Positions 137 through 35,014 of a stretch of 40,384 nucleotides of DNA are shown one piece after another. The notes under the pieces are model-generated. The model saw nothing but the letters and a program-made list of their open reading frames with translations. It did no database searches and was not told the origin of the DNA. The position numbers and the translations under genes were made by a program. The DNA comes from a virus, in IMG/VR virus record IMGVR_UViG_3300037010_001054, positions 1 to 40,384 of that record; one strand, written 5' to 3'. Position 1 is the first letter of the stretch, and the number at the start of each line of letters is the position of its first letter.

Positions 137-2758
137 TTACGCACCAACCGGAGCAACACCCATTACCACAACTTTACAAGTGATGGCCACATTAAATGTG
201 ACTGTCAAGGTATAGGCATCATTGAAAACAATGCTTTGTGGAATAATAACTTCATCAGCATTATCTACAACAGTTACGTTACAATATTTCTGACCGATGT
301 TATGATTTATTGTGTGTACTGTTGCTGAGTTTGGAGTAGTAACTGCATCATACAAGAAGTAACTATTGGACAAACGATTATCAACAGCGATACGTGCCAC
401 TGATTCATTGTATATTGCATTATCCAATGCAGTGTCTACTTGAAATAATGAATTGGTATCGCCGAGGTAGTGTGACTCAATATGCGGGACAAATTCACCA
501 GCTTCTGTCAAACCAACAGCATCTTCAATCGTATTAACTTCGCTTAGAAGATTTTCATCAAATGTTTGGATTTTTGCTACGCTAGCTTGAACTTCATCGA
601 TTGCATCTTGAACATTAGTAGCAGATAAACCAGATACTTCAACGCTGTAAGTAATTGCAGAGGCAGCATGGATGTGATCACCAGGAGCAGCAGTTGTTGA
701 TGTATTACCTAAGGCTACACCAACTGTATCAGCTGTTATAACTAATTTACCGACACTTTCTGGAGTACCTATAGCAGATACCACCGCCAAAGCTGAACCA
801 GCACCACCCGTCAAACCGTTACCAGCAACAGAAGCAGTTAACTCAGTAGGAGAAATAGTATTTGCAGCTACTTTCACACCATTCGCACTTTGTATTAATT
901 GACCAGTACTACCAAGATCAAGCAATAAATGCAATTTTGATGAAGTAGTTGTTGCACGTGTGTGACCATCATCTGTCAGAATGATAGCACTAGTTGCTGT
1001 ATCGTACAAGTCGATACCAATTTCATCTGTAGGCAACGCGAATATACCAGCACCCAAGTTTACATTCAATACATTACCAGAATAGGACAAACCAACACCA
1101 TCCCCGATTGCACCAGGACCAGCAATTTCAACCCAGCTGTGTGTGGTTGCATCGTATAAGTATGTATTACCATAGTCAGTTGACGCATCGATGCTATCTA
1201 GAACAGTGATACCTTGAGCCATCGCAGGACTACCACCAGCAGTTGCGACACCTTCAGGTTCGGACCAGCTAGCTGCCGAAGTAACAACACCACCTAGGTA
1301 TTGAATTAAGTCAGCTTTGCCTAATGCAGAACCACTAACAGTCAAACCAGTAATTGATGCATCCACTGTACCAGCTGCGCCATGTTCACCAGCGATAATG
1401 AAACGATCGCCAACAGCCAAAGTTTTGATTTTAACCCAAGCACCACCAAAATATTCAACTACATCATTAGCAGCAACTGGCAATGTACCCCATGTTCCAG
1501 CTGCAGTTGCCACATATGTGTAACTTGCTACTGGAGATGTTGGAGCAGCAGCCAAGAATCCCATCAAATCAGGAGATACGATAGGGTTACGCCATGTAGC
1601 GCCAGCAGAAACCAATGCATCAACATAAGCCTTTGTAGTAGCATCATTTCCGTATACTGGAGTTCCCATATTTGATACGGTAAAACCACCCATGTTCAAT
1701 GCATTTGCCATTGCGTGAGTACCATCTACACGAACATATTCTGCATCATCGTGAATAGCAATATCACCCAAACCTAAACTTGTACGTGCAGTAGCACCAC
1801 GCTGCAGAACCCAACGGGAACCTTCAGCAGTACCAGTACCAACCATAAAGTCGTATTGTGTTGTACCAGTGTGACCGTCGCCTGTTGAACCAGCCAGAGG
1901 AGCAAAATTACCGATTGTGGTTAAGTCAGCATCATACGCTTGTATGGTTGAATTGATAACCAAACCGAGCTTGCTAGCAGCACCAGCACCACTATCATAC
2001 GTGAATGTTACGCCATCACTTGTGAACAATAAGCTATTAGTAGCAGTAATACTACCCAAAGCTGCGATACCTGTTAAAGTACCATCTAGAGGTTGTTTAC
2101 CATCAATCTGTGTTTGTATAGCTGAAGTAACACCATGAACATAACCAAGTTCTGTAGCAGTAACGAGGGTACCGGTAAGAATGTTAACATCTGCAGCAGA
2201 TGCTGTAATACCATGCAATTTGATGAAATCAGATTGAGTGGCACCAGCTAAATGTAATTGATTAACTTCAGTAGATGTAGTGGTAACATCAGTGATATCA
2301 GCTAATACTAAAGTGTGGTTATTCCACTTTCCGGTAGAAGTGTTATATGAGATGGTTTGACCATTTGATAATGTTCCTAAAAAAACGTCATCCAATTGAG
2401 ATAATGCATCTTTACCAGCCGCAGCAGCAGCAACTTTATTGATAGCATCTGTGAAACTAGTGGCGCCAGCAGCAAAACCAGTAAATACAGCAGGTACCAA
2501 GTTACCATTACCGTTAATACCAGCACCTAATGTAACTTCGATGGCATCAACTTCTGTTTGCAGAGCAGCAGCGTTTCCACCCGTTGCAAATGCTGTCCAT
2601 GTAGTACCGGTGTTGAAGTAGTATGTGCTACCATAGAACACGATACGACCAGCTTCACTAGCAACCGCAGTAGGCAACGCTGCAACACGTTCGATGATCG
2701 CGTTTTGTATCTCTGATGTTCCACCAGCATTGAGTGTAAGATTACCATTAATTTTCAT
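137..2758 (-). CDS. tail fibre protein, 873 aa
   Basis: Large, low-complexity virion protein rich in Ala, Thr, Gly, Ser and Val. The N-terminus (MKINGNLTLN, then a short region ending in a W-containing strand near residue 55) looks like a fibre attachment domain. Residues about 165-235 carry a widespread fibre repeat type (T.L.LHGIT.SAADVN.L, then TELGYVHGVTSAIQTQI). The C-terminus (about 812-873) is the HNLG-type beta module (TINHNIG) also found in three other genes of this window. The start has a strong AGGAG site. A perfect late promoter box lies 62 nt upstream and a terminator follows the stop, so it looks like a monocistronic late gene. Host receptor binding is a family-level inference. 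Confidence 0.8.
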   Translation of the reverse strand: MKINGNLTLNAGGTSEIQNAIIERVAALPTAVASEAGRIVFYGSTYYFNTGTTWTAFATGGNAAALQTEVDAIEVTLGAGINGNGNLVPAVFTGFAAGATSFTDAINKVAAAAAGKDALSQLDDVFLGTLSNGQTISYNTSTGKWNNHTLVLADITDVTTTSTEVNQLHLAGATQSDFIKLHGITASAADVNILTGTLVTATELGYVHGVTSAIQTQIDGKQPLDGTLTGIAALGSITATNSLLFTSDGVTFTYDSGAGAASKLGLVINSTIQAYDADLTTIGNFAPLAGSTGDGHTGTTQYDFMVGTGTAEGSRWVLQRGATARTSLGLGDIAIHDDAEYVRVDGTHAMANALNMGGFTVSNMGTPVYGNDATTKAYVDALVSAGATWRNPIVSPDLMGFLAAAPTSPVASYTYVATAAGTWGTLPVAANDVVEYFGGAWVKIKTLAVGDRFIIAGEHGAAGTVDASITGLTVSGSALGKADLIQYLGGVVTSAASWSEPEGVATAGGSPAMAQGITVLDSIDASTDYGNTYLYDATTHSWVEIAGPGAIGDGVGLSYSGNVLNVNLGAGIFALPTDEIGIDLYDTATSAIILTDDGHTRATTTSSKLHLLLDLGSTGQLIQSANGVKVAANTISPTELTASVAGNGLTGGAGSALAVVSAIGTPESVGKLVITADTVGVALGNTSTTAAPGDHIHAASAITYSVEVSGLSATNVQDAIDEVQASVAKIQTFDENLLSEVNTIEDAVGLTEAGEFVPHIESHYLGDTNSLFQVDTALDNAIYNESVARIAVDNRLSNSYFLYDAVTTPNSATVHTINHNIGQKYCNVTVVDNADEVIIPQSIVFNDAYTLTVTFNVAITCKVVVMGVAPVGA

Positions 2759-3134: not shown

Positions 3135-3440
3135 TCATGCCGTTTTGAACATTATGATGTGAGCAAATCCATCTTGTGGTGCTCCAAATAGAACTTCTAT
3201 TGTATTTATGTCAACTATACGGACTATATCAGATAATATTAATTCGTTGTTCATATCATATATTTGACATACAGTATGCATAGTGCCTCCGTTATGAACT
3301 ATTGTCCATGTATCACTAGCAATAGTTTGTAGATAATAGTAACCATATGCACCACCTATAGGAATATTACCGAGTGCTTTATCACTAGCAACTATTTTAC
3401 CAGTTTCTTTGTCAACGTGTAATGGTACAAGATTACTCAT
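3135..3440 (-). CDS. fibre-associated protein with HNLG-type module, 101 aa
   Basis: Residues 1-33 form a short lead with a GNIPIGGAYGYYYLQ segment. Residues 40-101 form one beta module of the HNLG type (WTIVHNGG at 45-52, ending in FAHIIMF). The same module ends the fibre protein and the plus-strand protein at 30651-31067. In known phages this module occurs in tail fibre and decoration proteins, so a small virion or fibre-tip protein is likely. The start is 4 nt after the stop of the upstream gene, with a weak GAGG site about 10 nt before the ATG, which suggests translational coupling. Confidence 0.65.
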   Translation of the reverse strand: MSNLVPLHVDKETGKIVASDKALGNIPIGGAYGYYYLQTIASDTWTIVHNGGTMHTVCQIYDMNNELILSDIVRIVDINTIEVLFGAPQDGFAHIIMFKTA

Positions 3441-14702: not shown

Positions 14703-17700
14703 TTAGATGTTATATGATCCTTGTTTGATGTTTACTCTATTCAACGAAGTCACTATTTCTATATCATTTACTGTTATGCTCGGTAAAAACAATTCATCTT
14801 CTCTTGCATTAACTTGGAACATATCCCCAAAGAAGTTTTGTGCATTGATTGGAACTAATACTACAGTATCTATCTCAGTAGGTAATGATGCATGTATAGC
14901 AGCAGCTAACTCAGTAAAGTAAAATGTTTCTCCAAATTCCCATAAATTAATATCGAAATATGAGTTAATAACATCAATAATTTTTAATTTAATCTGATTA
15001 TCCGTTGAAGATGTACTAGCAGATCTAATTACCTTGATTGTCCCCCTTAATTCAGGAATAGCGTGAGATCCAAATAAATACTTGAATGCACCAGAGTGTA
15101 ATATTACTGTATCTGATATCATCTTGTTATCTAACAGATCTGCATAACTAGTACGTAAATCAAGTGGTGTTGGGGCTGCGGGTTCCGATGGAAGCAATCC
15201 TGCTAACCACTGTCGAACTGTTATATAATATCCTCTTGTTATTATAAACGTATCATTAATATTACTAGCAGCTGGGTCAATCAAATTCATGTTTGTTGAC
15301 TTATGTAACCACATAAAATTAAGACCGTTTCTACCATTTTCTCGTTTGAAATTTGAATTATTAGTATCAGTAGCATATGATAACATGGTAGTATCTGAGC
15401 TATCTGTGATTGACCAGGCATCACTTACCATCAGCCTGGTAAAATATACATATTCTTTAACGCTAATAGATATAGATGTAGCATTTGTCGAGTTAGCTAA
15501 TATAGTAATTTTGTTTGTAACTTCTCCAATTGAGGTGCTCGTATCTCCTTCTATCCAATCTGTTCCATTGATGCCAACAACAGCAACATCTCCACGACCT
15601 TTGATAAATGAAATTGGTACACTAATATCCGATACTGGAACTGGAGATATGGTTATTGTTGGATTACTAATATCATACAACGGAATGTTGTTAGTACCAA
15701 AATCTGGTACCCCATCCCCGTTCAAATCTTCATTTATTAAACTCAATTGATGTATATTAGGTAATCCTTGATCTGGTAAGCCAGCATCATATGATTCTTG
15801 GTTGAGAATTATGAAATTTGTATTAGTTGATTGTAACCCACTGTAATTTTTGTTTGGGTTTGCTTTTAATAATACTATTAAATCATTTCCAGGGTTTTTG
15901 GAATCGTAATTTACAACTCTACCCTTGGTAGTGAACCAAAACCTAGTTGTGGGACTTTCCGCAATGATTCTTGTTCCCTTAAATGATACATTCCATACAC
16001 CACCACTTGTCTGGTTAATCAATATTAACCAATTATCAGCATCAGCAGCGGCCTGAGAAGTAAACACTACAGGTACCCAGGCAGATGGGGTTATGGTGAT
16101 GTCGTATTTCAGATATATTGGCCATTGTACTGTCTGATTCAACATGTTAATTATTGCTGTTTTTTCGTTATACGTAAATCTCGTTCTACTGGCATCTGTA
16201 TTACCAGTTAGTGATCGGTTGATAAACAAATCAGCATTAGATAATAAAGGTTCTAGATAATCAGTAACCAATGTCGAAGAAGTAACATCTGCTGATATTG
16301 CTGGTAACACATTGATTAATTGTTTAAAATATATGGCCATATCGTCGCCAAAAATTCTGACATTATCATACGTCTCACTTGGATCGTTCCATGATGTATA
16401 TTTTGAATCACCTGCAAACGTGCGATTAACCGACATCATCTTTAATATAGACGAATCTTGTAGCATATACGTATTATAATCTCTACCATTCACCATACGA
16501 TCCTGCGTATAATAAACCGATGGTGCCATACGACGAATATGTTCAATATCCTCCGTTGGCGCAGCATTTTGTATAGTGGTGGTTGCAGAGAATGTAAAAG
16601 CAAATGATTGGTTGTTACCACTGCTATCTTGGTAATCTAAGCTGGAAGATATATTAGTTATAGCACTTTGTGGTATAACTAAATCTGTATTGGTTGATGT
16701 TCTGTACCATATTTGAAACAATCCCTTTGGTATATTAGCAAATTCCCCATCACCAAATATAATACGAACATTATCATCAGTTAAAGTTTCTACTTCATAC
16801 TTATTGCGTATCGTGTTTGTATTAAATATGATATTCTGGGAATGAGCTACATCCACCGGCACCCATTCCCCGTCCCGCATAGTCGATTTAACTGACGGAA
16901 TCGTGACAATTTGATATCCATTGTTTGGATCTACATTATTAACCCATAAATCAGTATCGTTGATATCTGTATCACCGATTTCTATCATTTGGTTAGGTGT
17001 AATACCATCAAATGTATAGTCTTTGTGTTTTAAAATACCTTGCTTTGTAAACATGAAGAAACCAGTGGTATTAGAACTATCCCCTAAACCATCAGATCCG
17101 TATAGCACAGTAAACACTGAATTTATTTCCGGACGTTTTTCGAATGGACCATCCTCATTCAATGAGGATGGTACCAATTCCATTGGAACACCCTGTCCAG
17201 ATACAGATACAGAATATGGCAACACCCCATTTGTTACAGGTATATTATTTAATGAATATAGCTCAAATAACACATCTTGTACTTGAACGCGGTCATTAGG
17301 TGCTACAGTACCAAAGTTCTGCTTTGATATCCTATTGATAACTAATAAAAACTGTTCTTTCCAATCAGGATTTGTATTATCATTCCAAACAATCTTTTTA
17401 TTTGCTAAATTTCTACCCTGCGAATCATACACGACCTCAGTTGTGCGCACTGAAGTTATTTTAACCAATGATCTTGCAGGTATACTGCGAGCTGCAGTAT
17501 ATGATATTAACTTTGCCAATCTCAGTACAGAATCTTTGCGTTGAGCTGTTGGTAAGAAGTTCTCGTGTGAAGTCAAATCTATTCTATATGCTAATAACTC
17601 ACCTAGATATGCAAATAATTCCAATATAGCAATGAATTCGGACGACTCTATATAATCATTAAAAGTTTCAGGAAAATATAGTTTGATATAATCTAGCATA

Positions 17701-17804
17701 CTAGATTTTATAGTGTCATAATCGAAAGCAGCAAAGTTTATATTTTTAAATGCCTCGTAAACATGTTCCCAACTTTCTGCTTTCGAAATTATTCTTCCGC
17801 TCAT
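14703..17804 (-). CDS. baseplate wedge protein, gp6-like, 1033 aa
   Basis: The N-terminal 110 residues match the gp6/J-type wedge pattern: FDYDTIKSSMLDYIK..FPE.FNDYIESSEFIAILELFAYLGELLAYRIDL, then RKDSVLRLAKLISYTAARSIPA. In T4, gp6 dimers knit the baseplate wedges together and transmit the sheath-contraction signal. This protein is much longer than T4 gp6 (about 660 aa), with a beta-rich insertion in the middle third, as in several jumbo or marine T4 relatives. Ribosome binding site AGAGGTAT. It precedes the giant structural gene and follows gp25-like and spike genes, the order expected for a baseplate module. Confidence 0.8.
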   Translation of the reverse strand: MSGRIISKAESWEHVYEAFKNINFAAFDYDTIKSSMLDYIKLYFPETFNDYIESSEFIAILELFAYLGELLAYRIDLTSHENFLPTAQRKDSVLRLAKLISYTAARSIPARSLVKITSVRTTEVVYDSQGRNLANKKIVWNDNTNPDWKEQFLLVINRISKQNFGTVAPNDRVQVQDVLFELYSLNNIPVTNGVLPYSVSVSGQGVPMELVPSSLNEDGPFEKRPEINSVFTVLYGSDGLGDSSNTTGFFMFTKQGILKHKDYTFDGITPNQMIEIGDTDINDTDLWVNNVDPNNGYQIVTIPSVKSTMRDGEWVPVDVAHSQNIIFNTNTIRNKYEVETLTDDNVRIIFGDGEFANIPKGLFQIWYRTSTNTDLVIPQSAITNISSSLDYQDSSGNNQSFAFTFSATTTIQNAAPTEDIEHIRRMAPSVYYTQDRMVNGRDYNTYMLQDSSILKMMSVNRTFAGDSKYTSWNDPSETYDNVRIFGDDMAIYFKQLINVLPAISADVTSSTLVTDYLEPLLSNADLFINRSLTGNTDASRTRFTYNEKTAIINMLNQTVQWPIYLKYDITITPSAWVPVVFTSQAAADADNWLILINQTSGGVWNVSFKGTRIIAESPTTRFWFTTKGRVVNYDSKNPGNDLIVLLKANPNKNYSGLQSTNTNFIILNQESYDAGLPDQGLPNIHQLSLINEDLNGDGVPDFGTNNIPLYDISNPTITISPVPVSDISVPISFIKGRGDVAVVGINGTDWIEGDTSTSIGEVTNKITILANSTNATSISISVKEYVYFTRLMVSDAWSITDSSDTTMLSYATDTNNSNFKRENGRNGLNFMWLHKSTNMNLIDPAASNINDTFIITRGYYITVRQWLAGLLPSEPAAPTPLDLRTSYADLLDNKMISDTVILHSGAFKYLFGSHAIPELRGTIKVIRSASTSSTDNQIKLKIIDVINSYFDINLWEFGETFYFTELAAAIHASLPTEIDTVVLVPINAQNFFGDMFQVNAREDELFLPSITVNDIEIVTSLNRVNIKQGSYNI
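17148..17172. other. strong hairpin inside the gp6-like gene
   Basis: Perfect 11-bp inverted repeat (ACCATCCTCAT and ATGAGGATGGT) with a 3-nt loop, inside coding sequence. There is no T-run, so it is not an intrinsic terminator. It may form an mRNA structure within the wedge message, or it may be chance. Confidence 0.5.
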
Positions 17805-17837
17805 GTATAATACCTCTGTATGAATTAGCTATGAATC

Positions 17838-17861
17838 TTTATGACTAAATACAGTCATAAA
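17838..17861. other. hairpin in the leader of the gp6-like gene
   Basis: Perfect 9-bp arms TTTATGACT and AGTCATAAA with a 6-nt loop, about 34-57 nt upstream of the gp6-like ATG. A further direct copy of TTTATGACT lies at 17885-17893. If transcription starts near the CATAAATA box at 17883, the hairpin lies in the 5' leader and could affect translation or stability. Confidence 0.45.
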
Positions 17862-17874
17862 ATAATGAATTGAT

Positions 17875-18130
17875 ATGCAACTTATTTATGACTCAGGCAA
17901 CAATATGATTATCAAACAATATACCAATATTAACTGGGTCAAAAAACAAATATTATCAGGAAATAATATACATGATGTAGTTCGGTTGTGTAATATATCA
18001 ATATTTACTACATCTCGATATTATACTAAAGGAATTTAATCCCACTCATACCGAATGGGAGAATATGGTTAATAATGGATATAACCACATATGGGATTGA
18101 GTAAATGATGTATGGATATGGAAGAAATAA
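17875..18130 (+). pseudogene. possible decayed small plus-strand gene
   Basis: This is the content of the only gene-free stretch over 300 nt (17805-18133). An ORF from ATG 17875 to TAA 18037-18039 encodes 54 residues with a helix-turn-helix-like segment (ILSGNNIHDVVRLCNIS, then SRYYTKG). Shifting by one base near 18030 extends the reading as EFNPTHTEWENMVNNGYNHIWD to a TGA at 18098, and past this TGA the same frame continues VNDVWIWKK to a TAA at 18128-18130. Tryptophan-rich sense on both sides of the TGA suggests a former TGG. There is no convincing ribosome binding site. This reads like an eroded gene of about 85 codons, but chance coding cannot be excluded. Confidence 0.35.
17883..17890 (-). 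promoter_or_regulatory. candidate late promoter box (CATAAATA)
   Basis: Minus-strand CATAAATA, one mismatch from the T4 late box, 78 nt upstream of the gp6-like ATG. It overlaps a copy of the 9-mer TTTATGACT that also builds the downstream hairpin. Confidence 0.35.
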
Positions 18131-18133
18131 TAA

Positions 18134-18547
18134 TTACTGGAAATCTATATGTATATTGAGATTTTGTGTGATATTCAATTCTATATACAACAAAGTAACT
18201 ACAACAGAAATACTTAGGTTATCATAATCAGGTATAGTTGTCATATTAATCAAATCAACTCGAGGATCATAAGTCACCACTTTAAGCACCTCTTCTTCAA
18301 CTAGAGATATTGTATTATCATCTAATGGTTCAAATACCAAATCTGGAATAATAGTGCCAAATGTTGGCATCATGACTCGCTCGCCTGGACGAGTAAATAT
18401 GTGATTCAATAAATCTCGGTTAACCAAATCTACATCAACAATGCTGAAATTTGTAACAGTAGCAGCTACTGCACTCGTAGGTGTTGATGTATACGTATAT
18501 ACACTCTTTCCGTAGTTGTGTGTTGTAAATCCTTTATATCTTACCAT
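18134..18547 (-). CDS. baseplate wedge protein, gp25-like, 137 aa
   Basis: Length and motifs fit the gp25/GPW family: FTRPGERVMMPTFG at 51-64, then FEPLD and YDPRVDL at 93-99, the family's conserved acidic-Pro-Arg-Val core motif. In T4, gp25 joins gp6 and gp53 in the wedge core next to the first sheath ring; the family was once called lysozyme-like but acts structurally. Ribosome binding site AAGGTG about 6 nt before the ATG. An AATAAATA box is 23 nt upstream. The order spike, gp25-like, gp6-like is a typical baseplate block. Confidence 0.88.
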   Translation of the reverse strand: MVRYKGFTTHNYGKSVYTYTSTPTSAVAATVTNFSIVDVDLVNRDLLNHIFTRPGERVMMPTFGTIIPDLVFEPLDDNTISLVEEEVLKVVTYDPRVDLINMTTIPDYDNLSISVVVTLLYIELNITQNLNIHIDFQ

Positions 18548-18570
18548 TATTACACCTTCACTCTTTCGGG

Positions 18571-18578
18571 TATTTATT
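18571..18578 (-). promoter_or_regulatory. candidate late promoter box (AATAAATA)
   Basis: Minus-strand AATAAATA in the 48-nt gap between the spike gene stop and the gp25-like start, 23 nt upstream of the ATG. Its 14-nt surroundings are identical to those of the box at 4436. Confidence 0.45.
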
Positions 18579-18595
18579 ATAATACACGAATATCA

Positions 18596-20020
18596 TCATC
18601 TGCGCCAATATTCGTTACGTATTTTGTCATCTCGTCCCATTTGTGGATCATCGTACTTATATTTGGGATCATGAGTGAAATCATTTGCTGTAATACATCT
18701 ACCATATGGTTCGTGTGACGGTAACTTATTAGTCCAGAATGATACCAGCTCTCCAGCATCACTGGCAGCTGCTGCAGTACTTGCGGTTGGGCCATTGAGG
18801 TGTATTTGACTACCAGTTTCAAGTATTTCTGAACCTGTTAAATTTAATGTACCACCTGATGTGATTTTGCCTGCTGCTCCAGACATGATGTTAAACTCTG
18901 ATCCAGCATCTACAAAGATGCTACTACCTGCTTTTATGTTAACATCAGCATCAGATTGTATATTTGTATTACCACTGGAGTGGGTATGTAATATTCCACC
19001 TATCTTCATATGTGTATCACCAACTGATTGTAGCCGTATTTCACCACCAGAATACATATGGATACCTTCGTTTCCATACAACCTAACAGTTTTATCAGAT
19101 GTTAGGTTGATATCAGATTCGGACCGTACAGATACTCGCTTTGTTGCGTATATATCTATATTACCATCCTGATCTAACTCTATCCAGTTTCTACCTTCCG
19201 CAGTATTAATATATATCCGCTCGTTCGTATCATCAAGTAAGATCTGATGACCAGCTGATGTACGGAGTTTAACACGACAGTTTTCCTTCCTATCATCCAT
19301 CGAGATAGAGTGAAACCCTGGCGAAGTCCATGAATAAACCTGAGGATCGTATCCAACATTGTTGTTCCCAGCTGTTTGATTTTTTGCATATCCTTGTCTG
19401 ATAATTGTAGTATTACCATCTTGTGCCGTGAATGATATATCAACATCATCTGCTTTGCTACTAATAATATTATGCTGGTGTGGATTTACGGCACAAGTGC
19501 TATAGTCTGCTCCACGTGTTCTCCATTCATAATTGTGGGTGCGGGTAGAAAATGCATTAGTTAAGTTGTCATATAACGGCTGTATTGGGTGTTCCTGTGA
19601 AGATAGTGGACCATCCGGTTCACTACCATCAGACAACATGAATCTACCATGCGGTAATGTATGACCTAGCATTTCCGACTGCAAACATCCTAGCCATATT
19701 CTAGCCATTGGATCACCATCTATACATGTTACAGCTACTGCTGCACCAACCTTTGGTATATTAAACATTCCGTATGCTACCGGACCTTGCGAGGTTTTTT
19801 GCTCAGTTCCACGAGTAGCGTTATCATTATTTAATACACCTCCAAATGGAGCAATATACGATGCCCACGGAATATCCTTTAACAAACTGTCAGATCTATC
19901 CCCATATGCTGGCACCAAAATACGCAAACGACCTGTCTGCTGAGGGTCATTCGTGTCAACCACTGTTCCTATAGTGATTGATGTGTATACTTGGTTGGCC
20001 TGTTGTTTTGGTTTGTACAT
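18596..20020 (-). CDS. baseplate hub/spike protein, gp5-like, 474 aa
   Basis: Residues about 12-110 form a gp5/VgrG-type OB fold (SITIGTVVDTNDPQQTGRLR, then PWASYIAPFGG and a GAAVAV..DGDP..ARIWLG stretch). Residues about 250-410 form the repetitive beta-prism spike (KLRTSAGHQILLDDTNERIYI, then short repeats ending with IGGILHTHSSGNTNI). It is the membrane-piercing spike at the tube tip. T4 gp5 carries a lysozyme domain between these parts; here residues 110-240 are too short and lack a lysozyme catalytic pattern, so cell-wall hydrolysis must come from another protein. The stop of the upstream gene abuts the ATG (TAAATG). Confidence 0.85.
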   Translation of the reverse strand: MYKPKQQANQVYTSITIGTVVDTNDPQQTGRLRILVPAYGDRSDSLLKDIPWASYIAPFGGVLNNDNATRGTEQKTSQGPVAYGMFNIPKVGAAVAVTCIDGDPMARIWLGCLQSEMLGHTLPHGRFMLSDGSEPDGPLSSQEHPIQPLYDNLTNAFSTRTHNYEWRTRGADYSTCAVNPHQHNIISSKADDVDISFTAQDGNTTIIRQGYAKNQTAGNNNVGYDPQVYSWTSPGFHSISMDDRKENCRVKLRTSAGHQILLDDTNERIYINTAEGRNWIELDQDGNIDIYATKRVSVRSESDINLTSDKTVRLYGNEGIHMYSGGEIRLQSVGDTHMKIGGILHTHSSGNTNIQSDADVNIKAGSSIFVDAGSEFNIMSGAAGKITSGGTLNLTGSEILETGSQIHLNGPTASTAAAASDAGELVSFWTNKLPSHEPYGRCITANDFTHDPKYKYDDPQMGRDDKIRNEYWRR

Positions 20021-20641
20021 TTATGCAAACTCTCTAAACCATGAAGTATAATCACCTGGAAAATCTGTTGGTTGATATATGAATGGTTTTGTGGCTGTAA
20101 TCTGGATTCTGGTCTGAAATAAATCACCATATATTATCTTTGAATTAATATTTATAAAATGCGGATCACTAGGAAACACTATCAGAGTACCACGTTGTGG
20201 GTTAAAACCAAATTGATGTTGGGGAAATTCAAGTTTCCCGCCATATACTTCGTATAGCGAATCAAATGGGACTGTTTCTTGGTAATCACATAAGAATATT
20301 ATTCCTGTTAAATCACGCTCTCTGGTACGCAGCCATTTATTGCGTAGAAATGAACTATTCTCACAGATAGGTGAACTAACAGAATCTTGTGGTAACCACT
20401 CAAATGTTACAGATTCAGTACCTTTATATTTGATATCATAGTGGGTTTCGATGACTGGGATTATTTCTTGCATTTTTTCGAAAATTACCATCTCATACCG
20501 ATCATGTTTACGAATTGACTTAACTGGCGTCCCTTCTGTATTGACATCGGGTTCGTAGGCTCCCAAATTATCAACGATTTGTTCGCATAATAGGGGTGAT
20601 AAAAATTGTTGAAATACCAAAAATGGTGATTTTTCGACCAT
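20021..20641 (-). CDS. 2OG-Fe(II) oxygenase-fold protein, 206 aa
   Basis: The C-terminal half has the double-stranded beta-helix pattern of prolyl-4-hydroxylase-like enzymes: RDLTGIIFLCDYQ, YGGKLEFPQHQF at 133-144, FNPQRGTLIVFPSDPHFI at 146-163, and FQTRIQI with an Arg at 178 suited to bind 2-oxoglutarate. His161 could be the distal metal ligand. The usual HxD pair expected near residues 103-110 is not evident (RTRERD instead), so activity is doubtful. Homologues are common in T4-like marine phages with unknown substrates. It is translated just before the spike gene and has a strong GAGGAG site. Confidence 0.65.
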   Translation of the reverse strand: MVEKSPFLVFQQFLSPLLCEQIVDNLGAYEPDVNTEGTPVKSIRKHDRYEMVIFEKMQEIIPVIETHYDIKYKGTESVTFEWLPQDSVSSPICENSSFLRNKWLRTRERDLTGIIFLCDYQETVPFDSLYEVYGGKLEFPQHQFGFNPQRGTLIVFPSDPHFININSKIIYGDLFQTRIQITATKPFIYQPTDFPGDYTSWFREFA

Positions 20642-20691: not shown

Positions 20692-21606
20692 TTAGTATTG
20701 CAATCCTTCAACCATCCTAAGGGTATCTGTCTTCATGTGCTTAATAATGTCGGCGAATGTTACTGTAGGACAACTATAGATAGCTTCCAATAAATCACTC
20801 AAATGTTTTTCGTTTTCGTTGGATGTGTTATTATCTGCTTGTTTAGCTGGTAATCCTTCTACCATTGTTTTCATCCAATCAACATCAATAGATTCTTTTT
20901 TGGGATCGATCAAATAATCACTCTTTGTTAGAAAGGTTAACCCTAGTAGCACAGGATCGGGCATATCACTACGATCGTTTAAATTGAATAATATTTCACT
21001 GTATACATGTCCATCTGCTTTGATGCTTAACTTGATAACTGGCCGATATGTTATACCAGCATCAGCTGTTTGTACTGTTTGTTGTTGATATAGTGGAACT
21101 GTGTAGGTCCTATCCTGAAAAGTAAATCTAACCAATTCACCTTCTTCGTACTGATTAGGAATTATAGATATATTCTGAGCGTCTAACGAACACATTTCAG
21201 CACCGGTATCAACTTTGCATTTTATAGGTTGATTTCCGTTAATTCCCATCAACACTACATCCAAACTCTTGCCAATAGTACGTTCTTCATAATGACGTGC
21301 AATATCCCTTGTATCGACCTCGTTGATAACTGCTACATCGTGCACTAAATGAACACTAGTTGGTAGTACTTGCATATTATCATTCAGTGCCCACGCTAGT
21401 ACCAGGTATTGTTCACTGGTAATATCATTATATACAACAGCCATCTTTGCTTTATTATCAAGTGACTGCGATTCTATTAGTGGTATGTTAAACTCAGTAT
21501 TATAACTGAAAGTTGTTTCACCTAGTATAATTTCTGTGTTAAATGATGTTATATACCCATCAGTAAACTGTTTGGACAACTCATCAATGTCAGTAAATTT
21601 ATTCAT
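20692..21606 (-). CDS. retropepsin-like aspartic protease, 304 aa
   Basis: The core motif KCKVDTGAEMCSLDA (DTGA at 133-136) is the retroviral-type active site. It is followed by a strand-rich region, a DRSDMPDPVLLGLTFL stretch (about 211-226) and DYLIDPKK. The arrangement DTGA..SL, then DR..M..PVLLG..FL, matches the PF05618 family (named ATP-dependent zinc protease, but with an aspartic-protease-like fold). The N-terminal 120 residues and the C-terminal tail are extra to this core. One DTGA per chain means a homodimeric active site. It sits between structural and scaffold-like genes, so virion protein processing is possible, but no substrate is known. Ribosome binding site AAGGGA. Confidence 0.72.
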   Translation of the reverse strand: MNKFTDIDELSKQFTDGYITSFNTEIILGETTFSYNTEFNIPLIESQSLDNKAKMAVVYNDITSEQYLVLAWALNDNMQVLPTSVHLVHDVAVINEVDTRDIARHYEERTIGKSLDVVLMGINGNQPIKCKVDTGAEMCSLDAQNISIIPNQYEEGELVRFTFQDRTYTVPLYQQQTVQTADAGITYRPVIKLSIKADGHVYSEILFNLNDRSDMPDPVLLGLTFLTKSDYLIDPKKESIDVDWMKTMVEGLPAKQADNNTSNENEKHLSDLLEAIYSCPTVTFADIIKHMKTDTLRMVEGLQY

Positions 21607-22637: not shown

Positions 22638-22925
22638 TTAACTTGTTTGACCAGTGGCAGCAGGCTGTGCATTAGGTTGTGCATTAGGCTGTGCATTAGG
22701 TTGTGCATTAGGCTGTGTAGCAGGCTGTGCATTAGGTTGTTTGGTTTGAGTAGCTAACATTTTCTGTTTCTGTGCCAATTGTGTCTGTAAATTGGCTATC
22801 TGCTGATCTACACCTTTGTTTTGATTAGCTTTTTTTGCCTGCAAGCTAGCAAGTTGTGTCTGTATGTTGAGCACATCAGATGCTAAATCCTCATTTAGCA
22901 GAAACACTTTAAATGTTGGTATCAT
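22638..22925 (-). CDS. coiled-coil protein with Gln-Pro-Asn-Ala repeat tail, 95 aa
   Basis: Three parts are visible: a short N-terminus (TFKVFLLNEDLAS) reminiscent of scaffold/capsid-targeting peptides of T4-like phages, a coiled coil (about 12-55, rich in Leu, Gln, Ala, Lys) and a tail with four-residue QPNA repeats (about 65-90). The tail is encoded by 12-nt direct repeats. The start overlaps the upstream stop by one base (TAATG), indicating translational coupling to the acidic protein before it. No enzymatic function; it may be a head-core or assembly partner of that protein, which is speculative. Confidence 0.6.
   Translation of the reverse strand: MIPTFKVFLLNEDLASDVLNIQTQLASLQAKKANQNKGVDQQIANLQTQLAQKQKMLATQTKQPNAQPATQPNAQPNAQPNAQPNAQPAATGQTS
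22663..22740. repeat. 12-nt tandem repeats coding for QPNA units
   Basis: About six and a half copies of a 12-nt unit, GGYTGTGCATTA on the plus strand, where Y alternates C,T,C,T in the first four units. The fifth unit is diverged (GGCTGTGTAGCA). The alternation suggests growth by duplication of a 24-nt double unit, probably by slippage or unequal recombination. Confidence 0.85.
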
Positions 22926-24283
22926 TATGATAGGTCCTCTTCCGCATTGTTAGCTAAATCGTGACGATATTTAGCTAGTTTCATTAATTTTCGTGCTTCT
23001 TTTTGTTCATCTGATTTGTGTTTGTAGAATGCTTCCATATCGAGAACTTCCTCTTCTGACTTAACACGTTGTTCCGCCATCTTACTAGCGTACTCAGCTT
23101 CTTTTGCTTTGGCTTCTTGAGCTTTAGCATTAGCTTCAGCTGTTCTCGCATTAGCATCAGCTTTTAACATATCAATTACTTTGTCCAGCGCACTACTAAC
23201 GGATGAGTCGGACGAATCGGATGAATTCGAATCTACTGGTGAATTGGTTGCGATATCCATATCATTGTCACCTGAGGTATCTGTTGAATCATCTGTCATT
23301 TCTAGATCAGTTGAAGTATCATCCTTACCCTCAGCTGGCGGCACAGTCTCTTCCTCATCTTCTGGCAGTGCAGGCCATTCTACGTTAATTATATCAAATT
23401 TATCTTTCAAATTAAATAAAATTTCCCCAATTTCCTGATTGTTCATCGCTGTGTCAACTACAATAGTATCCAAAACCTTCTGAAAATCACCAGCTTGCTC
23501 AGGTGGTACGTAAACTTTAACTATATTGCCAGAATCATCTTCTATGCCAAATGCGATTGATTTTCTATCAATACCAGTTTGTTTTTCTGCTGCTACCAGC
23601 TTTGATATTACATCTGCTGAGTTAAATTTATTTGTAGATGTAAATGCATTTCCAGTATCACTAAATTCTAATAATTCTGACATAAAACTTTCTCTGATAT
23701 TCCAATTCGCTCGGTTTGAGAATTGTATTCGTTGTACTCGTTCAGCTTTGGGAATTTTACGTTTAGCAACAACACCCCCAAATAATGATCCTCTAGCACC
23801 AGCCATATCACCAGCAGTTGTTGATCCTACTGCGGCATCTTCTCTCAACTTCTTAGTGAGCCAACTCGACATACCTTCGGTTTGGTGAATAGGACCCATT
23901 CGCAATTTATTTTTACTATTCTTTAATGCGGTGATAGCTTCTTCTTTTGTTTTAAAGAAACCTATGGTGTGTGTTCGCTTGGGGTGAGTTGCATCAACAT
24001 TTCCAGAATTTGCAGTCCATAACATCATCTTTTCATCATCGGCTTCAGTTACAGGTGTTGATGATGGTGCAGGCGTAAAATGTCCACCCTTACGGGATGT
24101 ATTGCCGTATTTAACAGAAAATGTATTACTATCTTTATTTGGGTAATATGCTTTCTTATTCTTATCAGCTTCAGCTTTTGTTTTATATGGACCATCAACG
24201 GCAGCATTATCATAATCATCGATTACGTAATACCCTAAACCCACGCTATCTGCCGTTTCTAATAAATTTTGGATAAATTTCAT
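22925..24283 (-). CDS. acidic, coiled-coil scaffold-like protein, 452 aa
   Basis: The N-terminus MKFIQNLLETA resembles the T4 capsid-targeting peptide. A short repeat-like unit follows (YKTKAEADKNKKAYY, and FFKTKEEAITALKNS near 108-122). Residues about 305-360 are very acidic and Ser/Asp-rich (DSNSSDSSDSS), and residues 365-445 form a long Ala/Glu/Lys coiled coil. The acidic plus coiled-coil layout fits a head-core or scaffolding component, but no family is recognised. It has an AAAAGGAATT site and candidate late boxes 20 nt upstream. The aspartic protease 1.3 kb downstream in the same operon is a conceivable processing partner. Confidence 0.5.
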   Translation of the reverse strand: MKFIQNLLETADSVGLGYYVIDDYDNAAVDGPYKTKAEADKNKKAYYPNKDSNTFSVKYGNTSRKGGHFTPAPSSTPVTEADDEKMMLWTANSGNVDATHPKRTHTIGFFKTKEEAITALKNSKNKLRMGPIHQTEGMSSWLTKKLREDAAVGSTTAGDMAGARGSLFGGVVAKRKIPKAERVQRIQFSNRANWNIRESFMSELLEFSDTGNAFTSTNKFNSADVISKLVAAEKQTGIDRKSIAFGIEDDSGNIVKVYVPPEQAGDFQKVLDTIVVDTAMNNQEIGEILFNLKDKFDIINVEWPALPEDEEETVPPAEGKDDTSTDLEMTDDSTDTSGDNDMDIATNSPVDSNSSDSSDSSVSSALDKVIDMLKADANARTAEANAKAQEAKAKEAEYASKMAEQRVKSEEEVLDMEAFYKHKSDEQKEARKLMKLAKYRHDLANNAEEDLS

Positions 24284-24336: not shown

Positions 24337-25848
24337 TTATCTATGAATTTTTTTCAATGCTACGCCATACAATACCGTTAATATACTATCTATATCCTTA
24401 GCATTCTGAATACCTAACAACAAATTATGCATTTCGTCTCTAACTTCCGCAAACACCATAAGAGTTCGTTTGTGGATTTCGTCAGTGTATGAAATTTCCT
24501 TACCTGATTTAAGTTGTAGACGATAATCCTTCCAGTTGTTATTATATTGTTGTAAACCCTTATCCAATTCAGATATACCAGATTTGATGGCTCTAATCAC
24601 CCCAGTTTTCACCGTATTTGGGTTTCTGACCGGTAAACTTTCTGCAAAATTCCGAACTGTCTCACTAGGTGTCGACCCAGCTACCTTTCCGATAATAGTA
24701 GATATTCGCGAATATCTACCTAATTCAGGTGATCCTAACACATCTGCAATCTTTTTAAGCATATTTCCAAATATATCACCATTCACACCAATGGTAGCAT
24801 TTCCCTTTGGTGATCTGGTGGGACCGGTATTTTTGATTTCCATTCTAACCGCATAATTGAATTGGTTTATAATGGTAAATACGTCTTTGTCTACTATCTT
24901 AAACTGTTGTAGTGTGTCCGGATTAAGAAATACAGCTCCTTCCACACCTGTATCTTCGTGAGAGTGTATCTCCACATCTCTTAGACTTGGAGATAATTTC
25001 CGAATAATACTATTTAATAACTTCTCTTTGATTGGTAATTTATAATGATGTTCTACGTATGACAATACGGTTTCTCTAGCAGTTTTTAAGTCTTCGCGTA
25101 TATGTTTGGGGACACTGTTTAATTTGACCAGCATAATTTCGCCGTTGGTGAGTCCCATATTACCAGCTTTATTAAGTGTTCCTAGAAATTTTCGCAGATC
25201 TGCTAATTCAGAATCAAGGTTTATGTCTTTGAATTGTTGGGTATCGATAAATGACGTTGATGTAAACTTCCATGTGTGTTCAACCTTCATTGATTTGATT
25301 TTAATACCATCATCAGTAGTAATATGATTAGTTACTACTGATACCACTTCACCTTCCATTATCTTTGCTAATCGTTTGATTTTGCCTTGGTCTGGTTGTT
25401 GTTTATTGTCACCTATAATCATCCGCAAAAAAGCGATGTATGAACTACCATATGTGATGGCATTTGGTTGTCTACCAAATAGCACTTCGCATTCTACCGC
25501 TTCACCAGGTCGTAATTCGGTACGTAGTAATGGTGATACCTTTTGTAGTGCCGCATGAGCACTTTTAAATCCATTCCAAGCCGCTTTATTTTCCCAATCA
25601 TCAGCACTATAAAACCTACCGCCCCGTTTCGCTTCTCGGCTAGTGTAGAATTTTCCATCTTCGTCAAAGCCAAATATCATATTAGCGCCATCTAGTTTTT
25701 CACTAGCAATGAATTTTGATAGGTTTTCAACAGCGTGCAGGAAGGCATCAATCGGCAGTGCCTCTATATGGTCGATGCCTTCATATAATTGAACTACAGT
25801 CCCATCTTTAGTTACTGTAGTATTTTTATAAAAATCTGCAAAATTCAT
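24337..25848 (-). CDS. ligase-like nucleotidyltransferase, 503 aa
   Basis: Carries the covalent nucleotidyltransferase motifs of DNA/RNA ligases: motif I SEKLDGAN with Lys51, a TSREAKRGGR segment (69-78), motif III ECEVLFGRQPN (119-129), motif IV EGAVFL (303-308) and motif V FKIVDKDVF (316-324). It is far longer than classical phage RNA ligases, with about 175 residues between motifs III and IV and about 180 after motif V. Presumably it forms a lysyl-AMP intermediate, but the polynucleotide substrate is unknown. The transcription unit is flanked by a terminator upstream; a candidate late box lies 24 nt before the ATG, with a CGGAGA ribosome site. Late expression beside head-type genes is unusual for a repair ligase. 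Confidence 0.7.
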   Translation of the reverse strand: MNFADFYKNTTVTKDGTVVQLYEGIDHIEALPIDAFLHAVENLSKFIASEKLDGANMIFGFDEDGKFYTSREAKRGGRFYSADDWENKAAWNGFKSAHAALQKVSPLLRTELRPGEAVECEVLFGRQPNAITYGSSYIAFLRMIIGDNKQQPDQGKIKRLAKIMEGEVVSVVTNHITTDDGIKIKSMKVEHTWKFTSTSFIDTQQFKDINLDSELADLRKFLGTLNKAGNMGLTNGEIMLVKLNSVPKHIREDLKTARETVLSYVEHHYKLPIKEKLLNSIIRKLSPSLRDVEIHSHEDTGVEGAVFLNPDTLQQFKIVDKDVFTIINQFNYAVRMEIKNTGPTRSPKGNATIGVNGDIFGNMLKKIADVLGSPELGRYSRISTIIGKVAGSTPSETVRNFAESLPVRNPNTVKTGVIRAIKSGISELDKGLQQYNNNWKDYRLQLKSGKEISYTDEIHKRTLMVFAEVRDEMHNLLLGIQNAKDIDSILTVLYGVALKKIHR

Positions 25849-28105: not shown

Positions 28106-29107
28106 TTAGCTGACTATTTTAATGGCAGGATATACAGATCTCAATATACTAGAGTTGATGTACAATTCACCGTCTATTTGATAAGATGAACCTATTGCAT
28201 TATTGATATCAATATCAACTATATCGAATACTTGACTTGTGTTTTTGTCAGTAGATTCATGTGGGTCATAGGACATTAAAACTAGTATATCTCCTTGTTT
28301 AATGCGATTATTATTACTGCCACCAACGGATATTGTGACACCACCTGTTGTTACTTGACTGAAGTAAAATGGTGATGCTGAATCAATCATCGAGCTGGTT
28401 ATATCATCAGCTATCACTGATGTACGTACAGTATATAGCTTTCCGTTGATGAATAATTGGTGTGTGTTCTTCCATGGAGACAAAAAAGATGCTTCGGAAG
28501 AGGCAAAGGTAAACCGCAGTATTTGCGTTTGGGTCGCAAACACAGGAGATATAAATTGAGTATGCAACACAATTGATGGTTCACTACTCAATGTAGCTAT
28601 AGTCAACACACGTCCACCTGTCAATAAAACCGGATTCGATAATAAGGCAGGTACATATTTTGGCACTAATTGGGATTGAGTTACAGTAGATCTAGCAATA
28701 CATTGTACCGTACCGGTAACAGCATCTTGAAATTCTACAGTAAGATTATATGGATCCACGAATGTTGTAGTAACGGGAACAACTTCTGTTAATACACCAT
28801 CAACAGTGTATATAAATGTTTGTATAGATGGATTCGTTCCTAAGTTATGGTGAATCATCCACTTTTTAGCGGCTATTGTTTGATTGTGATTGTAAAATAC
28901 TCGTCTAGGGGACCAATCCCCCAATCCTGTAGGATCTGGTGCTGGTAACTTTCCGCGAACATATGACGATTTTATTGATTGTTGTTTCAACATCCCCTTA
29001 CAATCACTCGTGATAATACAACGCCCTACTACCTCCAGCCCGAATTTGTTCTGTGGTATTTCTATAGATCGCTTGCATGTATCACATGTATAAACAACTA
29101 CCGCCAT
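28106..29107 (-). CDS. virion-like protein with N-terminal zinc ribbon and HNLG module, 333 aa
   Basis: Residues 1-40 hold four cysteines in zinc-ribbon spacing (C8xxC11, C30, C36). Residues about 80-140 form the HNLG beta module (KKWMIHHNLG at 81-90, ending TGTVQCIARS) shared with the fibre and two small genes. The remaining 190 residues are beta-rich, with no catalytic motif. Combining a metal-binding knuckle with a fibre-type module suggests a virion or host-surface-related protein, not a replication factor, although it sits upstream of the helicase. Ribosome binding site AAGGTGA. The exact role is unknown. Confidence 0.6.
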   Translation of the reverse strand: MAVVVYTCDTCKRSIEIPQNKFGLEVVGRCIITSDCKGMLKQQSIKSSYVRGKLPAPDPTGLGDWSPRRVFYNHNQTIAAKKWMIHHNLGTNPSIQTFIYTVDGVLTEVVPVTTTFVDPYNLTVEFQDAVTGTVQCIARSTVTQSQLVPKYVPALLSNPVLLTGGRVLTIATLSSEPSIVLHTQFISPVFATQTQILRFTFASSEASFLSPWKNTHQLFINGKLYTVRTSVIADDITSSMIDSASPFYFSQVTTGGVTISVGGSNNNRIKQGDILVLMSYDPHESTDKNTSQVFDIVDIDINNAIGSSYQIDGELYINSSILRSVYPAIKIVS

Positions 29108-31611: not shown

Positions 31612-32586
31612 TTAAAATTCAGACATTTTCGAAAAGAAAAATGCTTTTGCTTTATTGTTGACCGATTTAGCAACGTCTGCCCATACGAAACCATTATCTG
31701 TTATAGTATCAACCTCCTCCTTCAAGATGTCATTTGCTATCCACTTGAGGTACGAACCTATATTAACTGGATCAATATCTAAATGCATTTGGTTAACTAG
31801 AACATCCATACCTTGTTCTAAGCGACCATTAGGTAGAATTGCCTCAACCAATGCATTAATGTTATTAACACGCTCGATATCGACAGATACTACCTTTTTG
31901 ACTTTAGAATTGCTGTGTTTAGTTCCTTTTGTTTTGAAAAACAACTCGGTGTCAGAAGGTCTCTCGATGCACCTCCATACTACACCTTCACCAATACCAA
32001 CCACACCAAACTTCTTACCCCATGGACACTCTTCTTCGACAGCCAAGGTAACTCGTTCAATTTCGGGTATAGCTTGTTCTGGGTTTTTGAAATCAACAGT
32101 AACTTTATATACCGGAAGTTCGTATATATTGTAAATATTCTCCGCATGATCCATAACATCCTTATGGTATATGAAGTCAACATATTGGTCATTTACCACT
32201 GCTGCAAATAGTACCCAATGTTTATCAAGTTCAGTAACGGCTACATTACTTTGAATACCTTTGCCAACCCATTCACCATAAAGTGTAATATCAGCATCGG
32301 GGTCTGTCGATATTTTATCAAAAATATCATCCAACTTTTCAGTAGGTATACGATGGATGAATGCAGCAAATCCAGCATTGTCCTTGTCTACTGAAATTAA
32401 ATGTTCTCTCGATTGTGCTTGATATACCCCTCCGACTCTACGCAACCCTGCATTTGTACCGTGGAGTTTAACTGTACCTACAAAGTTTAATGTTGGTAAT
32501 TTATGAAGTGCATTGATTTTATTGTAGTATCCGGTTACAGTTTTAACTACATTTCTGTATTGGCCGATTGATGTAAACTTTTTCAC
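31612..32586 (-). CDS. RNA ligase 2 (T4 Rnl2-like), 324 aa
   Basis: Nucleotidyltransferase motifs in order: motif I VGTVKLHGTNAG (catalytic Lys40), a YGEWVGKGIQ element (about 103-112, the Rnl2-type GE-x-G-KG), motif IV EGVVWR (about 201-206) and motif V FFKTKGTKHS (about 217-226). T4 Rnl2 is 334 aa and seals nicks in double-stranded RNA. The GTG at 32586 is preferred over a TTG at 32610 because AAAGGA lies 6 nt upstream and the N-terminus MKKFTSIG then aligns with Rnl2. A perfect consensus promoter lies directly upstream. The role is likely RNA repair against host RNA cleavage. Confidence 0.85.
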   Translation of the reverse strand: MKKFTSIGQYRNVVKTVTGYYNKINALHKLPTLNFVGTVKLHGTNAGLRRVGGVYQAQSREHLISVDKDNAGFAAFIHRIPTEKLDDIFDKISTDPDADITLYGEWVGKGIQSNVAVTELDKHWVLFAAVVNDQYVDFIYHKDVMDHAENIYNIYELPVYKVTVDFKNPEQAIPEIERVTLAVEEECPWGKKFGVVGIGEGVVWRCIERPSDTELFFKTKGTKHSNSKVKKVVSVDIERVNNINALVEAILPNGRLEQGMDVLVNQMHLDIDPVNIGSYLKWIANDILKEEVDTITDNGFVWADVAKSVNNKAKAFFFSKMSEF

Positions 32587-32617
32587 TGTAGATCCTTTGT
32601 AGATTGTCAATCTAGTT

Positions 32618-33196: not shown

Positions 33197-35014
33197 ATGA
33201 CTGAATACATTTCACCCAACGGATACAAAATCAATATAGATTTAAATCGTGACTCACTACTGGACGTTATCGGAATCGACAGATTAAAAGATTCTTACAT
33301 GATGGAAAACGAAACAAGTCCTCAAGAACGATATGCATATGTTAGCGGTTTATTTGCTAATGATAACGATCATGCACAACGACTATATGAATATGCTAGT
33401 AAGTTGTGGTTTGGTTATGCAACACCTGTGTTATCAATGGGCAGAAATAATGCTGGTTTACCAATATCATGTTACCTAGTCAATGTACCAGATTCTAAAA
33501 AAGGTTTGGTTGATAGTCTGAGCGAAACAAATTGGCTTGGTATGTTAGGAGGTGGCGTTGGTGTTTACTGGGCCATTCGTGGACAAGATGATAAATCAGT
33601 TGGCGTAATACCACATATGAAAGTGTATGATGATGCTAGCCTTGCATATAAACAAGGTACAACTCGGCGTGGCGCATATGCAATGTATTTGGATATTAGT
33701 CATCCTGATATTATAGAATTTTTAGATATGCGTAAAGAAACCGGTGACCAGCGCCGTAAGTGCCTAAATTTGCATTACGGTGTTAGCATTCCAGACAGTT
33801 TCATGAACATCATCGAAAATTGCATGAAGGATGAAAATTACGATGATTCATGGGAGTTGCGTGATCCAGTGAGTGGTAAGTACCACGAGACGGTAAGTGC
33901 AAAAGAACTTTGGTCCAAATTGATCGAACTTCGTGCTGGCCAAGGCCGAGGCGAACCATATATTATGTTTGTGGATAATGTTAATAAAACTATTCCAGAT
34001 TATCTCAAAAAACATGGGTATAAAGTGTCTCAGTCTAATTTATGTAGTGAGATTACGTTGTGGACAGATGAATTCCGTACAGCCGTATGTTGTTTGAGTT
34101 CCCTAAACTTGGATAAGTGGGATATGTATAAAGATAATTATCAATTCTTTAAAGATATAATGATGATGTTGGATAATGTATTACAATACTTCATCGACCA
34201 TGCTCCTGCAGTAATTAGTCGTGCCATTAAATCAGCTGTTGAGGAACGTAGTGTAGGTCTTGGTGTTATGGGGTTCCATTCGTACTTACAACAGAAAAAT
34301 GTTCCGTTTGATGGCGTAATGGCTAAATCAATTAACAACAAAATATTTAAAACTATTCACGATTACTTACAAATCGTGAATAAGGAACTTGGTGCCGAGC
34401 GTGGGTCTCCGTTGTTACTTGAAGGTACAGGACTACGATTTGCTCATATGCAAGCAATTGCACCAACAGCATCTAACGCGTTGATTTGCGGTAATGTGTC
34501 ACCAAGTATTGAACCATGGCGCGCTAATGCATTCCGACAAGACACCATGTCTGGTACGTTTATTCAGAAAAATCGGTATTTGGATGATTTGATTAAATCA
34601 AAAGTTGAATCAGGTGAGTGCAAAGACTATGATGCTACTTGGTTAGAAATCGTTCAAGCTGAGGGTAGTATACAAAACATTAAATGCTTCACTGAATTGG
34701 AGAAAACAGTATTCCAAACAGCGTCAGAAATAGATATGATGTGGGCAGTGGAACATGTAACTGATAGGCAACAATATATTGATCAAGGTCAGTCATTTAA
34801 TATATTTGTGAGACCTGATATCAGCATCAAACGATTGCACGCTATTCACTTTGCTACTTGGAAGCGAGGAGGTAAAACGATGTATTATGTTAGAACTGAA
34901 AAGTTGGTTAACACTGAAAAGGTATCTCAGAAAGTATCCCGTAAGCGTATTGAGGATGATGTCGATTTAGCCGCGATCGTGAACGATGATGAGTGTTTAG
35001 CTTGCCACGGGTAG
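33197..35014 (+). CDS. nrdA: ribonucleotide reductase large subunit NrdA, class I, 605 aa
   Basis: Key residues are present: Cys92 in PISCYL and Cys298/Cys299 region in AVCCLSSLNL for the substrate-site cysteine pair, the radical Cys283 in NLCSE with Asn281 and Glu285, adjacent Tyr563-Tyr564 for radical transfer (TMYYVRTEK), and a C-terminal CLAC pair (600 and 603) for re-reduction. It reduces ribonucleotides to deoxyribonucleotides with NrdB. At 605 aa it lacks room for the N-terminal ATP-cone of E. coli-type enzymes (about 750 aa), so dATP feedback through that domain is probably absent. AAGGA ribosome site. Confidence 0.93.
   Translation: MTEYISPNGYKINIDLNRDSLLDVIGIDRLKDSYMMENETSPQERYAYVSGLFANDNDHAQRLYEYASKLWFGYATPVLSMGRNNAGLPISCYLVNVPDSKKGLVDSLSETNWLGMLGGGVGVYWAIRGQDDKSVGVIPHMKVYDDASLAYKQGTTRRGAYAMYLDISHPDIIEFLDMRKETGDQRRKCLNLHYGVSIPDSFMNIIENCMKDENYDDSWELRDPVSGKYHETVSAKELWSKLIELRAGQGRGEPYIMFVDNVNKTIPDYLKKHGYKVSQSNLCSEITLWTDEFRTAVCCLSSLNLDKWDMYKDNYQFFKDIMMMLDNVLQYFIDHAPAVISRAIKSAVEERSVGLGVMGFHSYLQQKNVPFDGVMAKSINNKIFKTIHDYLQIVNKELGAERGSPLLLEGTGLRFAHMQAIAPTASNALICGNVSPSIEPWRANAFRQDTMSGTFIQKNRYLDDLIKSKVESGECKDYDATWLEIVQAEGSIQNIKCFTELEKTVFQTASEIDMMWAVEHVTDRQQYIDQGQSFNIFVRPDISIKRLHAIHFATWKRGGKTMYYVRTEKLVNTEKVSQKVSRKRIEDDVDLAAIVNDDECLACHG

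Follow-up and report, generated by a model that had tools for sequence, protein, structure and literature searches.

The closest described relatives of the protein presented here are the glutamate-cleaving proteases RimB and RloA. RimB needs about six contiguous glutamates and leaves an all-aspartate tail uncut, and RloA cleaved runs of 8-10 glutamates and none of six or fewer (PMC12239564, PMC11957791). In a model of RloA, residues K46, R114 and R137 touch the poly-glutamate chain, and activity was most affected by the exchanges R114A and R137A (PMC12239564). The head protease gp21 of phage T4 cleaves after L/I-x-E (PMC9026906). Neither a phage retropepsin nor a second head protease beside gp21 was found described in the literature searched.

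The window analysed in our study is a 40,384-base IMG/VR viral fragment of a T4-superfamily jumbo phage which does not contain the head module. Its open reading frame 20692-21606 on the reverse strand starts with ATG and comprises the following features:
20692-21606, reverse strand: retropepsin-like aspartic peptidase of 304 amino acids, with a lineage-specific N-terminal domain, a PF05618 domain and a variable tail
21289-21606, reverse strand: N-terminal domain, residues 1-106, missing from some relatives (forms of about 190 amino acids)
20893-21288, reverse strand: catalytic PF05618/retropepsin domain, residues 107-238, according to AF2 pLDDT and Z scores
21199-21210, reverse strand: DTGA active-site motif, residues 133-136, each residue conserved in 66 or 67 of 67 relatives
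21214-21216, reverse strand: K131, equivalent of the poly-Glu contact K46 of RloA; Lys in 63 of 67 sequences, Arg in the other four
21043-21045, reverse strand: R188, equivalent of R114, a poly-Glu contact needed for RloA activity; 69 of 69 sequences
20971-20973, reverse strand: R212, equivalent of R137, a poly-Glu contact needed for RloA activity; 68 of 68 sequences

The Pfam model PF05618 matches residues 117-240 of the product (E=2.8e-11; 43.9 bits) above its gathering cutoff of 27 bits, instead of PF03420 (S77), which has no match in this protein. The DTG active site and the R-P-V-I and N-L-x-D-R motifs of PF05618 were all found. The two elements from which a PF05618-like protease had originally been predicted, DTGA at residues 133-136 and DR..M..PVLLG..FL (DRSDMPDPVLLGLTFL, residues 211-226, from D211 over G222 to L226), are present as written. 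In the alignment, D133 and G135 are found in 67 of 67 sequences and T134 and A136 in 66 of 67. The NCBIfam models RloA3, RloA1, RloA2 and RimB match the protease as well, all of them far under their curated equivalog or exception cutoffs (47.3 bits against 210 for RloA3, 25.4 against 200 for RimB), and the sequence matches in the PDB are 9g58 (RloA), 9g59 (RloA2) and 2pma (Lpg0085).

An AF2 model built from eight relatives reached pLDDT values of mostly 80-93 across residues ~111-230. The original prediction had asked for a fold comparison with PF05618 relatives and retropepsins, and this comparison bore it out: the model aligns with 2pma_A at Z 16.4 (rmsd 1.9, 120 residues), with 9g59 at Z 15.8, with 9g58 at Z 15.4 and with HIV-1 protease at Z of about 9, so that the RloA and RloA-like structures lie at Z 15-16. 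Since retropepsins fold into the acid-protease barrel of clan AA, the “double-psi barrel” named beforehand is the wrong test for this protein and the match to solved retropepsins the right one. Due to the confident model, the occurrence in 79 IMG/VR loci and the invariant D133, 20692-21606 is not a chance reading frame. Judged from sequence and model, it encodes a PF05618 retropepsin-like aspartic peptidase, with fold and family well supported, and this phage retropepsin is a variant of the RimB/RloA kind. Each chain carries a single DTG, consistent with a retropepsin-type homodimer. K131, R188 and R212 were equated through the 9g58 alignment with the RloA residues at offsets of -2, +66 and +89 from the catalytic Asp, and because all three are conserved, the phage family appears to retain the acidic-peptide pocket. 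The linker ahead of the protease domain is Glu-rich in the relative L073 and not acidic in the window.

Relatives of the gp6-like protein of the window occur in the phages XacN1, RAS14, GAP32 and PA5oct and in 39 IMG/VR loci; PF05618 was present in ten IMG/VR records of these relatives and in none of the five cultured phages tested. A wider scan for the protease family gave 79 IMG/VR loci with 69 different sequences. In the phylogenetic tree, 62 of 66 phage protease rows form one deep clade (support 100/100, stem 1.2) apart from cellular RimB and RloA. Two sequences from contigs assigned to Gammaproteobacteria and Heimdallarchaeota MAGs (L170, L171) sit within this clade and are probably mis-binned phage contigs. 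RimBK-like fusions of other giant phages group among cellular sequences; three of them (L159, L161 and L165, from G046 and others) are fusions of 493-503 amino acids with PF05618 that resemble the bacterial RimBK hybrid, and the G046 fusion also carries a RimK domain (E=5e-43).

The neighbourhood of the protease gene in the window consists of:
14703-20020, reverse strand: baseplate genes gp6, gp25 and gp5-like, adjoining the protease block
20021-20641, reverse strand: 2OG-Fe(II) oxygenase-like protein, third gene of a conserved trio; PHROG_61 match weak in the window, 2.3e-7 in the relative L070
21616-22305, reverse strand: PD-(D/E)XK exonuclease (PHROG_298), first gene of the trio, by profile match and alignment of relatives
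22638-22925, reverse strand: small protein with PNAQ repeats (“targeting-like”), with homologues in some relatives only
22925-24283, reverse strand: acidic helical protein (ACID), candidate substrate, from 45 aligned relatives and an AF2 model
23840-23848, reverse strand: L-R-E (residues 146-148 of ACID), followed by DAAVGSTTAG, gp21-type L/I-x-E site; [LI]xE in 39 of 48 relatives
23348-23377, reverse strand: WPALPEDEEE (residues 303-312 of ACID), candidate site of cleavage, where a disordered linker begins

The trio order exonuclease, protease, 2OG-like protein is kept beside the baseplate genes and also where the block lies near DNA polymerase, at a distance of tens of kilobases. Among 99 unique loci of the 2OG-like gene, 96 have a protease-family gene directly upstream; 94 of these carry D[T/S]G, and in the remaining two the gene runs off the end of the contig. 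The exceptions are XacN1, RAS14 and the short contig L368, in which an unrelated protein of 192 amino acids (1088-1666, forward strand) takes the place of the protease ahead of the 2OG-like gene. The ACID gene lies upstream of the protease in 52 of the 79 loci, many of the others being short fragments. Thus, the operon with a scaffold-like and a targeting-like protein that had been proposed from the window stands as far as same-strand neighbours are concerned, but the conserved unit is exonuclease, protease and 2OG-like protein and not a head or scaffold unit. A scaffold and baseplate operon was likewise rejected because gp5, gp25 and gp6 are adjacent in just 14 of the 79 protease loci.

The exonuclease frame was called from a TTG at 22305, and the alignment with relatives suggests an in-frame ATG near 22275 as the real start. 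In the 2OG-like protein the HxD...H iron triad was not found: the HxD position reads CEN, CDN, ADN or CDS, and C93 (51 of 58 sequences) and the distal H161 (50 of 58) are conserved in an alignment in which the triad was placed by eye. The protein is probably catalytically dead, with HxD replaced, and, being strongly conserved without HxD, could serve as a pseudo-oxygenase in a structural or regulatory capacity. Elsewhere in the window, three reverse-strand proteins (137-2758, 3135-3440 and 28106-29107) share a PHROG_21918/28944-type module and also match virion and HNH families. The gene at 31612-32610 (reverse strand) is a clear PHROG_548 RNA ligase, and 24337-25848 (reverse strand) is divergent and RNA-ligase-like, with RNA_ligase just below the Pfam cutoff. 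The large subunit of ribonucleotide reductase at 33197-35014 (forward strand) aligns at only about 22%, and along just a part of the protein, with the reductase of close relatives at the same place, suggesting that it was replaced by another type.

According to the original prediction, the aspartic protease could stand in for gp21, and PF03420 was indeed not found within the 40-kb window, which is a fragment. The search for a gp21-like protease, named beforehand as the observation that would speak against this role, gave a different picture in the relatives. S77 was detected in nine of ten tested trio-bearing records of at least 90 kb (G024, G036, G005, G025, G041, G042, G043, G044 and G047), the sole record of the ten with no match being G045, a 92-kb fragment. 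In G041 (379 kb), the largest of these records, the genes for portal, S77 protease (PHROG_207, 2.9e-59), scaffold-like protein and major capsid protein stand together as a canonical head module. A second, shorter S77-like frame of 168 amino acids lies beside the main gp21-type protease of G041 at 66817-67137. Due to these results the replacement of gp21 was rejected; in the relatives, the protease works beside a gp21-type head protease and not in its place. An additional enzyme for one virion protein is now the leading hypothesis.

None of the 691 called open reading frames of G041 has at least six Glu in eight residues, so a phage-encoded poly-Glu substrate was rejected and the acidic neighbour was considered as substrate. 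ACID begins with L-x-E followed by AAxGATxAGxxAG, resembling LLNETAATGSTDTTAIAG in the major capsid protein (gp23) of G041. Because of this similarity and the known T4 gp21 site, ACID probably belongs to the prohead proteins that gp21 trims, in agreement with the earlier view of the acidic neighbour as a plausible virion protein. It is not gp22, as a separate scaffold-like gene adjoins gp21 in G041. The fold of ACID gave no PDB match (best E 0.44) and no convincing PHROG match. Its AF2 model shows a folded domain (residues 222-302), then an acidic motif, a disordered linker and a helix of 90 residues; pLDDT falls to about 51 by residue 311 and is below 50 across 319-360. Among 45 relatives the motif W[PG]x[IV]x[EG]DEEE is strongly conserved (W303 in 44, D309 and E311 in 43 each), and it is acidic in every readable protease-bearing locus. 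The motif as a gp21 site was rejected, since L/I-x-E matches it in a minority of sequences by a rough regular-expression count with some mis-hits.

XacN1 and RAS14, which carry S77, show the order acidic protein, small protein, 2OG-like protein, small gene, DNA polymerase. The gene in the protease slot of XacN1, RAS14, L401 and L402 has no DTG. When compared by hhalign, the slot profile aligns with the protease family along its length at 64% (P 6.6e-5) with two sequences and at 56% (P 1.1e-4) with five, against at most 0.5% for reversed or unrelated controls; as single proteins among 264 unrelated phage proteins, the XacN1 sequence ranked first and the RAS14 sequence ninth. The slot protein is, by these profile comparisons, probably a degenerate protease homologue. 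A scan with it revealed no more DTG-less slot genes, and three further DTG-less slots were reached through the 2OG-like gene. In the same four loci the acidic run of ACID is replaced by FPKIPTDVVYN or FPNIP(D/E)D(I/V)VYN. Since all five degenerate loci group together as a single clade in the tree of the 2OG-like protein (99/97), the joint loss of DTG and acidic motif counts as one event, which is suggestive, not proof. Due to the presence of S77 in XacN1 and RAS14, the motif loss does not follow a loss of gp21, and gp21 is an unlikely reason for the motif.

We propose that the protease would act as a homodimer in which each subunit supplies one DTGA aspartate, and that its basic pocket, conserved with RimB and RloA, would grip glutamate-rich peptides. 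ACID would enter the prohead, have its start trimmed by gp21, as its L-x-E/AAxGATxAG sequence implies, and be cut by the protease at W[PG]x[IV]xEDEEE, where the small folded domain meets the flexible linker to the long helix. The cut would free the helical from the folded part during head assembly. That a homodimeric protease beside gp21 cuts ACID in this way is the best-supported mechanism, which we nevertheless consider somewhat less probable than its opposite, and the assignment of ACID as the substrate is likewise tentative, at about the same level. The case is made by the identity of the enzyme, its pocket, the gene linkage, the conserved motif at the linker entry and the co-loss in the XacN1 clade. 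Because EDEEE is shorter and mixed in comparison to the known glutamate runs of RimB and RloA, the specificity would have to differ. A weak point is that some ACID-bearing contigs, all of them fragments (e.g. G014), show no protease in the stretch available.

The main rival to ACID is a host target: like RimB, the protease could strip glutamate tails from proteins of the host, ribosomal protein S6 for example, or cut another host acidic protein. We regard such a takeover as rather unlikely. It would agree with the family and pocket shared with RimB and RloA and with the lack of glutamate runs in G041. PF08443 (RimK) was not found in G024, G036, G041 or other trio phages and occurs only in the RimBK-fusion phage G046, the window's own genome being incomplete for this test. 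For this reason a RimK/RimB poly-glutamylation pair was rejected, and any poly-glutamate would be made by the host. Against a host target, the protease is tied to a fixed phage neighbourhood, forms its own deep clade with a stem of 1.2 and scores far under the RimB and RloA cutoffs. It is unlikely that the protease cleaves a different protein of the phage (the exonuclease, the 2OG-like partner, an uncharacterised virion protein or its own N-terminal domain) and that the ACID motif serves binding or another purpose. In favour of this reading, no gene is linked more tightly to the protease than that of the 2OG-like protein (96 of 99), and the L073 linker is Glu-rich. However, the partner alignment shows no outstanding acidic run, the linker of the window is not acidic, and such a target would leave the co-loss in the XacN1 clade unexplained.

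A mainly non-proteolytic role in binding or regulation appears improbable. RimB itself is bifunctional and also stimulates RimK (PMC11957791), and, since the XacN1 clade retains a form without DTG, the role may in part be independent of catalysis; yet D133, T134, G135 and the pocket residues are very strongly constrained in all other members. We give hardly any weight to a takeover of gp21-type head maturation, which could appeal to the 40-kb fragment without S77 but conflicts with the S77 genes of the larger records and the full head module of G041. Returning to cleavage of ACID, we speculate, as a broader picture that we hold to be doubtful, that head maturation in this large T4-superfamily jumbo lineage depends on two proteases of unrelated origin, gp21 and a RimB/RloA-family retropepsin aimed at an acidic switch site of one internal head protein, and that the XacN1 clade lost enzyme and site jointly, so that a pseudo-protease now occupies the slot.

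If ACID is indeed the substrate, both the target and the cut site of the enzyme can be named, and culturable phages belong to a clade that would be a natural case of loss of function. A testable function is also offered for the many viral proteins named “ATP-dependent zinc protease”. Short proteins of uncultured Caudovirales in BFVD with the name “ATP-dependant zinc protease” (A0A6J5Q7E0 and others) match the predicted fold (E 2e-10), and we know of no functional or neighbourhood work on them.

Compared with the structurally described relatives, the phage protease is like the periplasmic RloA and RloA2 of Pseudomonas (9g58, 9g59) and Lpg0085 of Legionella (2pma) in fold (Z 15.4-16.4 over 118-124 residues), and it shares DTGA and the equivalents of K46, R114 and R137 with the RloA family. 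In contrast to RloA, most phage members have an extra N-terminal domain, the phage protein has no signal peptide evident by eye, the distance from the catalytic Asp to the Arg of RPVI, the flap region, is 55 instead of 66 residues, and the scores lie under the curated RloA cutoffs. PF05618, DTGA and the pocket residues are also common to RimB and the RimBK fusions; the differences are the lack of RimK in the large trio phages tested, the separate deep clade and the lack of a poly-Glu run in G041. The T4 gp21/S77 protease is likewise phage-encoded, and a prohead protein is the hypothesized target of the retropepsin too, but the two are unrelated in fold and chemistry, S77 being a serine protease, and are encoded by separate genes in the same phages. 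HIV-1 protease shares the clan AA half-barrel and likewise has a single DTG in each chain (Z about 9), whereas the phage protease is far closer to its bacterial-type relatives and stands outside any polyprotein. If ACID is the substrate, a retropepsin would take part in the virion assembly of bacterial viruses, in parallel to the role of the retroviral enzyme.
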